Source: Cognatishimia maritima (lineage in GTDB: Bacteria; Pseudomonadota; Alphaproteobacteria; Rhodobacterales; Rhodobacteraceae). Taken from it: a DNA stretch of 64,000 bases. The stretch covers positions 682,001-746,000 of the forward strand of contig NZ_FQWM01000001.1 of assembly GCF_900129685.1 (NCBI RefSeq), read 5' to 3'. This document shows, piece by piece, positions 48,675 to 54,730 of the stretch; within the stretch, counting starts at the first letter, position 1; the number at the start of each line of letters is the position of its first letter. The notes beneath the pieces were generated by a model, which was not told where the DNA came from, did not search any database, and worked only from the letters and a program-made list of their open reading frames with translations. A program made the translations under genes and the position numbers.

Positions 48675-49358
48675 ATGCCAATCACAACTTGCGTTTTTGA
48701 CGCCTATGGTACGCTGTTTGACGTGGCTGCGGCGGCGCGCATTGCGGCGGGTGAGCCTGGGATGGAAGCCTTGCAAGAGCGCTGGCCCCAGATAGCAAGG
48801 GACTGGCGGTTGAAGCAGTTGCAATATTCTTGGCTGCGCGCAATCACCGGGGACCACACTGAATTTTGGCAAGTGACGCAGGACGGGCTGGATTGGGCGC
48901 TAGAGGCAGCGGGGCTAACAGACGAAAGCATTCGCGCTCGTCTTTTGCAGCTTTATTGGGAGTTGCCCGCCTACCCCGAGGTACCGCAGATGCTCACCAC
49001 GCTGAAAGACAAGGGTTTGCAGACAGCGATCCTGTCTAATGGTGACCCTAAGATGCTGGGCGCAGCAATCCAAAGCGCCCAGCTTGGACCGCTTTTGGAC
49101 GACAGTCTTAGTGTCGAAGAGGTTGGTATCTTCAAACCCGACGCGCGCGTTTATGACATTGTCCTCAAACGGTTCTCCTGCCAGCCAGACGAGGTGCTTT
49201 TTGTCTCCTCCAACGGTTGGGATGTTGCGGGTGCCGCGGGGTTTGGTTTTGTCACAACCTGGGTCAATCGCGCACAGGAACCAGTTGATCGCTTGCCACA
49301 CCGGCCCCATCATCTATTGTCCGACCTCAGCGACATCCCTGCCCTGACGGAGACCTAA
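48675..49358 (+). CDS. haloacid dehalogenase, type II
   Basis: A 227-residue HAD-superfamily enzyme. The nucleophile motif I is CVFDAYGTLFD, motif II is ILSNGDPKML, and the motif III Lys is in FKPDARVYD, followed by FVSSNGWDVAGAAGFGF. This matches L-2-haloacid dehalogenases, which hydrolyse 2-haloalkanoic acids. The start is ATG 48675 after GGAAGAGG. It overlaps the following alpha/beta hydrolase by one base (TAATG). Confidence 0.92.
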   Translation: MPITTCVFDAYGTLFDVAAAARIAAGEPGMEALQERWPQIARDWRLKQLQYSWLRAITGDHTEFWQVTQDGLDWALEAAGLTDESIRARLLQLYWELPAYPEVPQMLTTLKDKGLQTAILSNGDPKMLGAAIQSAQLGPLLDDSLSVEEVGIFKPDARVYDIVLKRFSCQPDEVLFVSSNGWDVAGAAGFGFVTTWVNRAQEPVDRLPHRPHHLLSDLSDIPALTET

Positions 49359-50188
49359 TGCCCAACTTTAAGACCTCTGACGGATTGACGTTGTATTATT
49401 CGGATCAGGGGGACGGCATCCCTGTCTTGTGTCTTGCTGGTCTCAGCCGAAATTCCAGCGATTTCAGCTATATCGATGGGCTGCTTGATGGCGTGCGCCT
49501 GATCAAGATGGACTACCGCGGGCGCGGGCGTTCGGACTGGGCGAATGATCACAGCAGCTATAACATTCCGCGCGAAAGCATGGATGCGATCGAATTGATG
49601 GATCATCTGGAGATCGAGAAATTTGCCGTGCTTGGAACCTCTCGTGGCGGGCTGTGCGCGATCACCATTGGCGCCCTCACAAAGGACAGGCTGCTGGGGG
49701 TTGCGTTCAACGATATCGGCCCCGTGGTTGAGGCGGAAGGACTTGCCTATATCGACGACTACCTTGGTCTCCCGCCGGACTGGGAAACCATTGCCGAGGC
49801 CGCGATCAAAAGGCCAAAGACAATGCCCGGCTTTGTGAATGTACCTAAAGCGCGCTGGCGTGAAGAGGCAGAAAAACACTATCGCCAAACCGAAAACGGG
49901 CTAGCGCTGAGCTATGACCCCAAGTTGCGCGACGCCATTATGGAAGCAAAGCAGCTTGAAGTGCCCGACCTGTGGCCATTTTTCAAGTCGCTTGAAGATA
50001 TCCCATTGGCCTTCCTGCACGCGGAAAACTCGAACCTTCTAAGTGCGGAAACCTTTGCGGAACTGGCCGAGGCCTTTCCCGCTGCGATCATGGCAGAAGT
50101 CAAAGACCGCGGGCATATCCCCTTCTTGGATGAACCAGAATCGTTGGCTGCGTTGCGCGATTGGATCATGCGCTTACCTAAGGCCTAA
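49358..50188 (+). CDS. alpha/beta-fold hydrolase
   Basis: A 276-residue serine hydrolase. The oxyanion region is PVLCLAGLSRNSSDF, the nucleophile elbow is LGTSRGG with an intact Ser, and the His is in KDRGHIPFLDEPE. Its start overlaps the haloacid dehalogenase stop by one base, which suggests coupling. The substrate is unknown; esterase, epoxide or haloalkane activity are all possible. Confidence 0.92.
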   Translation: MPNFKTSDGLTLYYSDQGDGIPVLCLAGLSRNSSDFSYIDGLLDGVRLIKMDYRGRGRSDWANDHSSYNIPRESMDAIELMDHLEIEKFAVLGTSRGGLCAITIGALTKDRLLGVAFNDIGPVVEAEGLAYIDDYLGLPPDWETIAEAAIKRPKTMPGFVNVPKARWREEAEKHYRQTENGLALSYDPKLRDAIMEAKQLEVPDLWPFFKSLEDIPLAFLHAENSNLLSAETFAELAEAFPAAIMAEVKDRGHIPFLDEPESLAALRDWIMRLPKA

Positions 50189-51491: not shown

Positions 51492-52277
51492 ATGACTTTT
51501 CCCAGCGGAGATATTGTCCTGAACACAGAGGTGTCGGGGCCAAAAATCGGTGCGCCTGTGGTGCTGTTGCATTGTATGGGCGGCGACCTGCGTGTTTGGG
51601 ACAAGGTGCTGCCGCTGCTGCCAGAAACCAACCATGTGATCCGTGTCGATCTGCGGGGGCACGGCCTGTCGTCCTGCCCGCCTGCGCCCTATTCGATGGG
51701 CGGTATGATCCGCGATGTTGAACAGGTTTTAGAGCGCCTTCGGGTGCGCGATGCCGTGGTGGTTGGCATCGGTCTTGGCGGCATGATCGCGCAGGGTTTG
51801 GCCGTGAAGCGGCTGGATCAGGTGCGCGGGCTGGTGTTGTGCAACACCGCTGCAAAAATGGGCCATCCGCCGCATTGGCAGGCTATGATTGAAGACATTA
51901 AAGCCGGGCGACAGGATGATCTGGCGCAGCGCTTTATGCAGATCTGGTTTCATCGAGCGGCACGCGCGGAAGGCTTGCATCACGACATCCAAAAGACCTT
52001 TCAGTCCACGGCGGCCGATGCTCTGATGGGCGCATTTCAGGCGCTGATGGGCAGCGATTTCTACACACCGACCAGCGGCTTGCGCTTGCAAAGCTTGGGC
52101 ATCTCTGGAGCAGAGGATCGCTTTGTGCCACCGGACCTGATGCGCGAAACCATCGACCTTATTCCCGGCTCAGAATTCGCGCTTTTGCACAAGTCCGGCC
52201 ACCTGCCCCCTGTTGACCAACCCGATGCCTTTGCAAAGACACTGACGGGTTTCCTAAAACGCATCGGGCACGTCTAA
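51492..52277 (+). CDS. pcaD: 3-oxoadipate enol-lactonase-like protein, nucleophile Ser replaced by Gly
   Basis: A 261-residue alpha/beta hydrolase of the PcaD family, which hydrolyses the enol-lactone in protocatechuate degradation. The nucleophile elbow should be GxSxGG but reads GIGLGG, so residue 94 (codon GGT at 51771-51773) is Gly. A single A-to-G change from an AGT Ser codon would explain it. The acid (SGAEDRFVPP) and His (KSGHLPP) members of the triad remain. Catalysis is probably lost unless another residue substitutes. A shortened PcaB-like gene follows. Confidence 0.85.
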   Translation: MTFPSGDIVLNTEVSGPKIGAPVVLLHCMGGDLRVWDKVLPLLPETNHVIRVDLRGHGLSSCPPAPYSMGGMIRDVEQVLERLRVRDAVVVGIGLGGMIAQGLAVKRLDQVRGLVLCNTAAKMGHPPHWQAMIEDIKAGRQDDLAQRFMQIWFHRAARAEGLHHDIQKTFQSTAADALMGAFQALMGSDFYTPTSGLRLQSLGISGAEDRFVPPDLMRETIDLIPGSEFALLHKSGHLPPVDQPDAFAKTLTGFLKRIGHV

Positions 52278-52309: not shown

Positions 52310-53083
52310 ATGGCCGCATCTGTTTTCGACAGCCCCCTTTATGCCAAATCCTTCCCCTGCGGCGACGCCCGTCAGTTGTTTACAGACAGCGCCGCCGTGC
52401 GCGCTGTGTTACTGGTGGCGGGAACGGCGGCCAAAGCGCAGGGCGAACTGGGGCTGATCCCGCAAGACAGCGCCTTTTTCATCCACAGAAGCGCGATGGA
52501 AGTGCAGATCGACCCGGCTGGCTTGGCGCAAGCGCTGCCTTCCAAAGGGTTCGCACCCGCCGTGCTTGAAGCCTTTGAAAAAGCCATGGAATCGCCGGAG
52601 CATGCGAAGTTCATCGGGTTTGAAGTCGATTTGATTGCGCTTGAGGCCATCGCGCTAACACTGCGCTTGCGCCAGTACCTCAGCTATTGTGCGGGCAAGC
52701 TAGACGCGCTTCAACCAACTTGTCCAACGGTGGCGACGCGTTTGGACGAGCTCAAAACCGCCAAGGACGTCTGCATCGGTTTCGCATTTCCGGGTGACGC
52801 AGACGCACAGGTGGCCCCAGCAGTTGCAGCGGCGCTGAACCTGCCTTTGAAAGATGCCATGCCCTCACCGCTACCCATCCTTCACCTCTGTGCAAACATC
52901 AGCGCTGACCTCGCGCAGGATGCCCCGGACCACCCGACGCTCCGGCAGTTAGCGGGGCTGACGCGCGGTCTGTTTGCTGCGACCGAAGACGCACCTAGTT
53001 TGATGGAGCCCGTGACATTGCCACAAATCTGCCTCGCGGCGGCATCATCGCTTGAAATCGCAATCGCCAACGGCCAAGCTTAG
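52310..53083 (+). CDS. shortened PcaB-like (fumarase/aspartase superfamily) protein, probably inactive
   Basis: A 257-residue protein whose N-terminal 95 residues (MAASVFDSPLYAKSFPCGDA, IHRSAMEVQIDPAGLAQAL, ESPEHAKFIG) align with 3-carboxy-cis,cis-muconate cycloisomerase. Beyond that the family is not followed: the WGATSQDI region is replaced by IGFEVDLIALEA, and the GSSAMPHKxNP signature and the catalytic Ser loop are missing. Family members are 350 residues or more. It is intact as an open frame, so either it is a decayed pcaB or it has been repurposed. It follows the pcaD-like gene after 33 bases. Confidence 0.75.
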   Translation: MAASVFDSPLYAKSFPCGDARQLFTDSAAVRAVLLVAGTAAKAQGELGLIPQDSAFFIHRSAMEVQIDPAGLAQALPSKGFAPAVLEAFEKAMESPEHAKFIGFEVDLIALEAIALTLRLRQYLSYCAGKLDALQPTCPTVATRLDELKTAKDVCIGFAFPGDADAQVAPAVAAALNLPLKDAMPSPLPILHLCANISADLAQDAPDHPTLRQLAGLTRGLFAATEDAPSLMEPVTLPQICLAAASSLEIAIANGQA

Positions 53084-53119: not shown

Positions 53120-54340
53120 ATGACGTCTCGCCTGTCCAATACCTTTGTGCTTTTCACCGTGGTGATTGACGCCATGGGCATCGGTTTGATGATGCCGATC
53201 ATGCCGGACCTGATCCGCGAGATCGAAGGCGGCGACATCGCAGGGGCTGCGATTTGGGGCGGCGTGTTGGCGACAGTCTTTGCGACAATGCTTTTTTTGT
53301 TTGGCCCCCTGGTCGGCAGTCTGTCTGACAGGTTTGGCCGTAGGCCGGTCTTGTTGACCGCCTTGATCGCAATGGGTTGTGCCAAGCTGCTGATGGCCCT
53401 TGCTGGCACGATCTGGATGCTGCTAGCGGGGCGCATTGTGGCGGGGGTTGCCGCGGCCACGCAATCAACGGCGTCTGCCTATATGGCCGATATTTCCCAC
53501 CCCGACGAAAAGGCCAAAAACTTTGGTCGCATTGGCGCGGCTTTTGGCGTTGGATTTGTGTTTGGCCCTGCCCTTGGCGGCGCGCTGGCCGAATTTGGCA
53601 CCCGCGCGCCATTCTACGCTGCTGCCTTCCTTGCGTTTTCCAACGCCCTATTGGGCCTGTTCGTGATGCAGGAAACCGTCGACCAAAGCCGCCGTCGACG
53701 CTTTGAATGGCGGCGGGCGAACCCGCTTGGGGCGCTGATTGCCATGTCGCGTCTGAAAGGGTTGAAAGAGCTTTTGTGGGTCTTTTTCCTCTATCAGGTT
53801 GCTTTGGCGGTCTACCCGGCAACTTGGTCCTTTTTCACCGCTGAAAGATATGGCTGGTCGCCGCAAACCATCGGCATTTCGCTGGCGTTTTTTGGCCTGA
53901 CCTATGCGCTTGTGCAGGGCACTTTGGTGCAGCCCTCCATAAAGCAGTTCGGGCATCGGGGTACGGTTATGTTGGGCCTGTTGCTTGAGGTTGGTGTTTT
54001 GGTGATCTTGTCGCTGATCACCGTGGGGTGGATCGCGCTTATCTTCACACCGATGGCGGCGGTGGCGGCCATTGGGCACCCCGCCATTCAGGGCATCATG
54101 TCACGCAAAATACCCGACGACGCGCAGGGCGAGTTGCAGGGCGTTTTGGCCTCTTTAGGGGCCATTTCGATGATCGTTGCGCCAATCGCAATGACCCGCG
54201 TCTTTGCGCATTTCTCTGGCCCCGGCGCGCCAGTTTATTTCCCCGGTGCCGCCTTTTTGCTTGCGGCCGCGCTGATGCTGATCGCGACGGTCGTGTTTTT
54301 GCTGCGGCCACGCGGCAACGTCGCGGCACGCTCGAACTAG
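53120..54340 (+). CDS. MFS transporter, TetA/TCR-like
   Basis: A 406-residue twelve-helix major facilitator. The loop 2-3 motif [14 protein letters not shown] is intact, along with [14 protein letters not shown] and [11 protein letters not shown]. These resemble the tetracycline-resistance antiporter branch. No drug specificity is assigned. An ArsR-type regulator gene follows 37 bases later and may be co-transcribed. Confidence 0.92.
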
Positions 54341-54376: not shown

Positions 54377-54730
54377 ATGACAGAGAGCGAACAAGACGAC
54401 GAGACCCCGATGCAGAAAGCAGATATCCCGATCTCCGAAATGGAGCGCAACGCAGAAGCTGCGGCGAGCTACCTTAAGGCGCTGGCCCATGGCGGGCGCT
54501 TGATGATCCTCTGCCACCTGTGCAGCGGTGAGAAGTCTGTGGGGGAGCTGGAACAACTGCTGGATATGCGGCAGGCCGCCGTCAGCCAGATGTTGGCGCG
54601 TCTGCGCGATCAGGGTTTTGTGACAGCGCGTCGTGACGGCAAAACCATCTATTACACCCTGACCGATGACCGCACGGCCGAGGTGATAGGCATGATGTAT
54701 CGCCTGTTCTGCGCCCCGTCAGAGGACTGA
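54377..54730 (+). CDS. ArsR-family transcriptional regulator
   Basis: A 117-residue winged helix-turn-helix protein. KALAHGGRLMILCHLCSGEKSVGELEQLLDMRQAAVSQMLARLRDQGFVTARRDGKTIYY spans the whole DNA-binding domain. The metal-binding ELCVCDL motif of metal-sensing ArsR is absent, so it is more likely a redox or persulfide-type sensor (SqrR/BigR-like features: two Cys in ILCHLC). The start at ATG 54377 lies in a run of polar residues; a later start ATG at 54410 is possible. Confidence 0.88.
   Translation: MTESEQDDETPMQKADIPISEMERNAEAAASYLKALAHGGRLMILCHLCSGEKSVGELEQLLDMRQAAVSQMLARLRDQGFVTARRDGKTIYYTLTDDRTAEVIGMMYRLFCAPSED

Follow-up and report, generated by a model that had tools for sequence, protein, structure and literature searches.

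Delta-crystallin I is a lens protein, an inactive member of the fumarase/aspartase superfamily that is kept for a structural role. Pseudoenzymes are thus already known in this superfamily and in that of the alpha/beta hydrolases, where NDRG proteins represent them. NDRG3 is non-enzymatic with an alpha/beta-hydrolase fold; of its two nearest homologues by structure, one is reported to be PcaD, 2XUA (PMC7022630). HOD is reported to be a cofactor-free dioxygenase with a His/Asp base mechanism (PMC3961685). In the roseobacter R. nubinhibens, 4-hydroxybenzoate use has been shown to require a pcaB located outside the pca cluster (PMC12442348).

We analyzed a window of 64,000 nucleotides of Cognatishimia maritima, the genome of which is designated G000 below. 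It encodes PcaD* (51492..52277, plus strand), a protein of 261 aa that has an alpha/beta-hydrolase fold and belongs to the family of PcaD (3-oxoadipate enol-lactonase), in a frame open along its whole length. For comparison, 295 family genomes were searched, one per genus; 249 of them, G000 included, gave a match with an E value no higher than 1e-30. Out of the other 248 matches 129 were read (the 131 best-scoring minus G267 and G253), a sample that leans to query-like sequences.

The nucleophile elbow of PcaD* reads VGIGLGGM. Gly94, with codon GGT at 51771..51773 (+), occupies the position of Ser in 124 of the 129 relatives; it aligns with the Ser of 2xua (Burkholderia xenovorans PcaD) and of 3om8 (a P. 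aeruginosa homologue), the closest solved structures by sequence among the matches listed. The nucleophilic Ser of GxSxGG is thus missing, while the acid and the His of the former triad are in place: Asp209 (52116..52118, +) is Asp in all 129 relatives, and His237 (52200..52202, +) is His in all 129 as well as in 7/7 Gly-type Cognatishimia copies. In these respects the preliminary description was accurate; it had proposed that Gly (in GIGLGG) replaces the nucleophile, that acid and His remain and that the frame is otherwise intact.

The top NCBIfam match of PcaD* is TIGR02427 (PcaD), at 208.9 bits, below the curated cut-off of 255.85. Ser-type syntenic relatives from other genera (L099, L161 and L094) scored above the cut-off, with 334.0, 346.5 and 302.3 bits; a Ser-bearing Cognatishimia protein, L067, was also below it, with 214.3 bits. 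An AlphaFold2 model of PcaD*, made from an alignment of 69 rows, had a mean pLDDT of 96.6 and matched 2xua best (Z 39.8, rmsd 1.3, 256 residues), which places the protein in the alpha/beta-hydrolase fold. Gly30, beside the usual oxyanion position, is retained. As the PcaD mechanism of hydrolysis needs Ser, loss of hydrolase activity is expected, and PcaD* would not perform Ser-His-Asp hydrolysis of 3-oxoadipate enol-lactone. With a catalytic residue substituted and the frame under purifying selection (see below), PcaD* is a candidate alpha/beta-hydrolase pseudoenzyme.

Glycine and the pocket in Cognatishimia

The search returned nine genomes of the genus, including Cognatishimia activa CECT 5113 (G001), Cognatishimia sp. 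1_MG-2023 (G006) and Cognatishimia sp. SS12 (G005). The pcaD frame was open in all nine; at the syntenic position seven had Gly at the elbow and two had Ser (L066, L067). The seven Gly codons were GGT (one copy), GGG (one), GGC (two) and GGA (three); since all four GGN codons are in use, Gly appears to be held at the protein level while the codon drifts. Judged from these sequences, Gly94 is an old state common to most of the genus; a private or recent mutation is ruled out by its presence in seven of the nine syntenic copies. The probability of a sequencing or assembly error at the 51771 codon, which the preliminary description had named as a way in which it could be wrong, is practically nil: nothing was found in favour of such an error, and it is ruled out by the other Cognatishimia genomes, in which this position is also Gly but is written with differing codons.

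Ser-type relatives encoded the nucleophile by TCN in 119 of 124 cases and by AGC in five; one relative had GCG (Ala) at the elbow. The earlier remark that GGT is one transition from AGT is therefore literally true and uninformative. As Ser relatives mostly use TCN, the ancestral Ser-to-Gly change probably took two steps, with AGT to GGT probably not being the path; the Ala codon GCG is a possible intermediate.

Yet another alpha/beta-hydrolase family of Cognatishimia has Gly at the elbow (GAGLGG/GTGLGG) and retains what appear to be the acid and the His, in 3/3 sequences (L026 1399-2100, L027 1372-2094, L028 1453-2154 (-)).

Residues lining the pocket have changed as well. Met132 of PcaD* (51885..51887, +) aligns with the Arg of 2xua and 3om8 and stands where 99% of the 124 Ser-type relatives have Arg; among the seven Gly-type Cognatishimia copies this position is Met in six and Asp in one. 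Ile151 (51942..51944, +) takes, in the sequence alignment, the place of an Arg found in 94% of Ser-type relatives and matched by Arg in 2xua and by Asn in 3om8. Arg151, Phe157 (93% of Ser-type) and Trp166 (93%) are each retained in none of the seven Gly-type copies. Arg132 and Arg151 would be the residues binding substrate carboxylates.

The seven Gly-type copies formed a single ten-row clade (SH-aLRT 96) with L066, L067 and the sister L031, which by its place among the named records (L088) is Cochlodiniinecator piscidefendens. These three Ser-bearing members are also without Arg132 and Arg151; as both arginines are already gone from them, the pocket was probably remodelled before Ser was lost in the Cognatishimia line. 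A lid stretch, PHW, is common to 7/7 Gly-type copies and L031. Ser-less proteins of other genera, by alignment, have Arg132 in 5/6 and Arg151 in 6/6; since they mostly keep the arginines, their history differs from that of the Cognatishimia line. L066 (G004) and L067 (G002) are on a very long branch, with Ser kept and both conserved arginines gone, and may represent a PcaD with a third function or with a regained Ser. That two genomes of the genus keep Ser counts against a repurposing of PcaD*.

Could PcaD* be an enzyme of another kind? His and Asp might serve as an acid-base dyad, as in HOD and AqdC, and an aromatic or keto acid might, for example, be deprotonated, decarboxylated or oxygenated. 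Among the 13 Ser-less sequences examined (seven from Cognatishimia and six others) His is present in 13 and Asp in 12, and the shared lid stretch suggests a new substrate; furthermore, HOD operates via H251-D126 and AqdC has a natural Ala at the elbow (PMC10548524). However, one Gly-type Cognatishimia copy, L064, has Asn at the acid position (Asp in the other six), and His and Asp may be structural: Ser-type relatives have 50 columns conserved at 98% or more, and 35 of these are the same in all seven Gly-type copies, so that the two residues do not stand out by being retained. HOD did not appear in the sequence and structure matches of PcaD*, but these lists were of limited length and its absence excludes nothing. 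We consider a dyad enzyme to be a minority possibility, one still to be reckoned with, and our preference is for binding or scaffolding over His-Asp chemistry.

Hydrolysis of an altered substrate, by another nucleophile or by a water-only mechanism, would agree with the intact fold and with the retention of Gly30 and the His-Asp pair. However, the 14 columns that are invariant in the seven Gly-type copies yet unlike the Ser-type consensus contain no Cys or Ser; the only Asp among them, residue 242, where most Ser-type rows carry Glu, lies a long way along the chain from position 94. That PcaD* is still a hydrolase of this sort thus seems to us very improbable.

The surrounding locus and related genera

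Upstream of PcaD*, on the same strand, are encoded a HAD type II hydrolase (48675..49358, +; the ORF is listed from 48495, with homology from about residue 61), a second alpha/beta hydrolase, ABH2, with Ser elbow GTSRGG (49358..50188, +) and, directly before pcaD, an endonuclease/exonuclease/phosphatase-family protein, EEP (PF03372; 50268..51485, +). HAD, ABH2, EEP and PcaD, together with FabB, FabI and FKBP, were present in 9/9 genus loci; Lhr and PdeM were also found in all nine. On the downstream side, beyond the PcaB-like gene treated in the next section, are an MFS transporter (53120..54340, +; a neighbour in 7/9 genus genomes) and an ArsR-family regulator (54377..54730, +; 8/9). The nearest models of the Tet-like transporter are those of tetracycline efflux; it reached the curated cut-off of none of the Tet models listed and probably serves ordinary efflux or uptake.

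In at least 21 of the 129 relatives the pcaD of this locus is followed by pcaH; 15 of these 21 have a HAD, ABH2 or EEP neighbour and 10 have a full pcaB. Full-length pcaB is at the locus in at least 64 of the 129, and both counts are lower bounds, as 29 loci came with only 1.5 kb of flank. Given relatives with pcaH and full pcaB at the locus, it is best read as a pca operon stripped to differing degrees; the Cognatishimia locus looks like a remnant of such an operon. PcaH is found somewhere in 180 of the 295 family genomes, and its absence is still compatible with a catechol branch. A full PcaB at the locus is commoner in genomes with PcaH (58/94) than in those without (6/35; Fisher p 8e-6, kinship ignored).

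The loci of Leisingera (L099), Ruegeria (L161) and L091 have an extra alpha/beta hydrolase of ~236 aa, with elbow GHSWAG, between pcaD and pcaB (L099 6767-7474, L161 6784-7494, L091 6767-7474).

Profile searches of the genomes gave no match to the PF00775 (intradiol) dioxygenase family in G000, G001, G003 and G006. In G000, then, neither the protocatechuate 3,4-dioxygenase nor the catechol 1,2-dioxygenase of this family was found, TIGR02422 had no match either, and no pathway of ortho ring cleavage, be it by pcaHG or by the catechol branch, is encoded along with PcaD*. A second intact pcaD elsewhere in the genome, raised in the preliminary description, did not appear above the TIGR02427 cut-off, the one further match being far below it at 80.9 bits; no other PcaD that might compensate was thus found in G000 above this cut-off. 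In four genomes of the genus (G002, G004, G005 and G007) there is a further pca cluster, apart from this locus, whose PcaD is of Ser type and exceeds the cut-off. In G008 PF00775 matched once, and a second PcaD-like gene, at 224.6 bits, stayed under the cut-off.

Gly at the elbow is no peculiarity of one genome, nor even of one genus: the 129 relatives had, besides 124 Ser, four Gly (L058, L176, L234 and L243) and one Ala (L218). A second set, for which 80 named loci were retained out of 155 confirmed ones, contained 73 Ser and seven Gly; it was drawn by two peptide patterns, one containing GLGG, and gives no frequency estimate. Its Gly cases were three Cognatishimia records and one uncultured Rhodobacteraceae of the same genus (L082-L085) and, outside Cognatishimia, Pseudodonghicola xiamenensis, P. 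flavimaris and Rhodobacteraceae bacterium Alg231_04. The two sets overlap, as P. flavimaris is the L176 genome and Alg231_04 is the L058 genome.

Ser was absent in 0/73 genomes with PcaH and a single PcaD versus 5/56 others (Fisher p 0.014, kinship ignored); the five Ser-less genomes outside the genus were three with PcaH and a second PcaD-like copy and two without PcaH. In all of these 56 genomes, five of them with Ser loss, this PcaD copy looks dispensable. The link between Ser loss and a missing full PcaB is weak: Ser was lost in 0/64 loci with full PcaB and in 5/65 without (Fisher p 0.058, kinship ignored), and, when the count was confined to the 100 loci whose flanks reach about 3 kb, in 0/53 versus 4/47 (p 0.045, kinship again ignored). 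Orphan copies of other genera, those with no PcaH in the genome and no full PcaB at the locus, have Ser in 27/29 cases; as most of them keep Ser, a nucleophile-free function need not be the ancestral state.

By parsimony, the elbow changed four times on a FastTree tree (143 rows, elbow unmasked, Ala counted with Gly) and six times on a quick IQ-TREE tree (59 chosen rows, two elbow residues masked). These trees, in which many forks are unsupported and which give no direction of change, are consistent with several independent losses of Ser. The longest end branches belong to two Ser-less PcaD with unusual elbows, GLGAGG in L234 (G251) and GHGMGG in L243 (G211); at the L234 locus the EEP gene is on the opposite side of pcaD.

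The PcaB-like gene and selection on both frames

Directly after PcaD* comes PcaBn (52310..53083, +), a 257-aa PcaB-like protein with the N-terminal part and core helices kept. The preliminary description had seen here a shortened PcaB-like gene directly downstream; the gene does adjoin pcaD, but it is not a simple truncation, as it has internal deletions in addition to lacking the end of the C-terminal part. In comparison with ten full-length relatives (442-452 aa), the GQxATPTSFG and SSTMPQKQNP regions are deleted in 6/6 PcaBn copies, and GATSQDI is replaced by other letters in 6/6; in the window, the stretch GFEVDLIAL (52616..52642, +) aligns with HWGATSQDI of full-length PcaB. The signature loop SSTMPQKQNP is present, with small variations, in all ten full-length relatives aligned. 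We take the three regions to be the catalytic motif regions of the fumarase/aspartase superfamily. Among the six PcaBn copies 56 columns are invariant, of which 46 fall in the first 124 residues.

A model of PcaBn had a mean pLDDT of 92.5, with CMLE structures 2fel, 1q5n and 1re5 as the best matches (Z 26-27); against 2fel, Z was 27.0 and rmsd 2.1 over 255 residues, an outcome favoured by the full PcaB rows held in the model alignment. Turkey delta-1 crystallin, 1i0a, was also among the structure matches. By this model, PcaBn is a compact PcaB core with the helical core of CMLE.

PcaBn follows PcaD* directly in 6/9 Cognatishimia genomes, all of them Gly-type. The earlier notion that the altered elbow and the altered PcaB support each other agrees with these counts, a gutted pcaB being found after pcaD in 6/7 Gly-type and 0/2 Ser-type genomes of the genus. 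PcaBn was not at the locus in G008 (Gly-type), G002 and G004, and the loci of the other six Ser-less copies (L058/L068, L132, L176, L218, L234 and L243) showed no PcaB. PcaBn as a mark of every Gly-type copy is ruled out by these cases, and a partnership of PcaD* and PcaBn is not general.

One could still speculate that the two proteins, once enzymes of a single catabolic operon, make a paired pseudoenzyme module, a ligand-binding or scaffold complex with active sites removed and scaffolds under selection. If so, the module might, for example, sense an acid derived from aromatics on behalf of the transporter and regulator encoded next to it, and the Ser losses repeated in other genera would reveal that ordinary PcaD conceals a function for which no nucleophile is needed. 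We think of this as rather unlikely.

For the closest pair of genomes, G000-G003, differences in PcaD* by codon position were 0.21/0.15/0.53, with omega 0.076; three further pairs had omega 0.057, 0.034 and 0.033, and the pair G006-G005 was saturated. The hypothesis of omega=1 was rejected in 5/5 pairs (likelihood-ratio 152-607). In PcaBn the codon-position differences of G000-G003 were 0.44/0.34/0.63, and omega=1 was rejected in 5/5 pairs (likelihood-ratio 36-412), with 3/5 fits saturated. The omega values are rough, since synonymous changes are near or at saturation, and the codon-position pattern is the firmer evidence. Both PcaD* and PcaBn evolve faster than their neighbours EEP and FabI; the rate of PcaD* is near that of ABH2 (closest pair 0.22/0.13/0.56). 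The raised rates relative to EEP and FabI also fit partial relaxation, and this counts against repurposing.

The same rates are to be expected under slow decay, with the operon remnant being lost, both proteins non-functional and the frames open only for lack of time; PcaBn is missing from the loci of G008, G002 and G004, and in the family some loci have pcaH and others lack it, and likewise for full pcaB, the pattern that stepwise loss would leave. However, third-position differences of 0.53-0.65 indicate long divergence, yet 9/9 PcaD and 6/6 PcaBn frames are open; omega=1 was rejected in all five pairs for both genes, saturation affecting one of the five PcaD* fits as well as the PcaBn fits mentioned above; and Gly94 is conserved through four codons. 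Slow decay is already largely contradicted, and we regard it as improbable. The preliminary description had argued against random decay and for either a specific loss or a changed role. This much is upheld by the four Gly codons, the nine open frames and omega of about 0.03-0.08; a recent single-codon lesion in one genome it is not.

Possible role and known systems

With slightly better than even confidence, we propose that a former pcaD, in a remnant of a pca operon, was repurposed in Cognatishimia as a stable, non-hydrolytic PcaD-fold protein beside a gutted PcaB. A conserved Gly, two frames under selection and a lid stretch altered in common all point to a kept, altered role. In the first step the pocket would have been remodelled by loss of the two arginines conserved in Ser-type PcaD; in the second the nucleophile Ser would have been replaced by Gly. 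The backbone of the elbow is strained and Gly would relax this strain, which might explain the recurrence of Gly; it may have been favoured once Ser was unneeded.

PcaD* most likely works without covalent hydrolysis, by binding either a small acid or lactone-like ligand or a partner protein. PcaBn, a helical scaffold without the signature motifs, probably has a related non-catalytic role, and the two may cooperate. Intact genes side by side with their active sites removed, in this marine bacterium and in most of its genus, suggest proteins kept for another job and not simply broken.

Across the family, one locus offers a natural separation-of-function series: pcaD with pcaHG and pcaB; pcaD with pcaB; pcaD alone; a remodelled pocket with Ser; pcaD with Gly. 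The series makes a second, nucleophile-independent role of a catabolic enzyme testable. For annotation, automatic ‘PcaD/PcaB’ labels in Cognatishimia do not amount to a working beta-ketoadipate pathway.

Among the matches listed in CC-licensed PMC literature we found no report of a Ser-less PcaD or of a PcaD/PcaB pseudoenzyme pair, so the PcaD*/PcaBn case itself is apparently unreported there; a search of the same literature found no activity data for any Ser-less PcaD member.

PcaD proper (TIGR02427; 2xua) and PcaD* are alike in fold, length, acid and His, and in the gene position, which is that of the pca operon in relatives; they are unlike in the change of Ser94 to Gly, in the lost Arg132 and Arg151, in the sub-cut-off score and in a genome without PF00775 dioxygenase. 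Eukaryotic NDRG proteins share with PcaD* the substitution of triad residues in a fold that is kept. However, in NDRG3 the whole triad is substituted and the pocket blocked, whereas PcaD* and its Gly-type relatives keep His and mostly Asp; PcaD* is also bacterial, operon-derived and far more PcaD-like in sequence.

HOD and AqdC presumably differ from PcaD* in substrate and in the position of the acid, and they were absent from the matches listed for PcaD*. The likeness is an alpha/beta-hydrolase fold in which His-Asp suffices and Ala can stand for the elbow Ser (PMC10548524).

PcaBn resembles full PcaB/CMLE (2fel, 1re5, 1q5n), its best structural matches, in the N-terminal part and the core helices; it differs in length (257 aa vs 442-452 aa) and in three motif regions, which are deleted or replaced. 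Delta-crystallin is full length (444 residues), whereas PcaBn has motif regions deleted.
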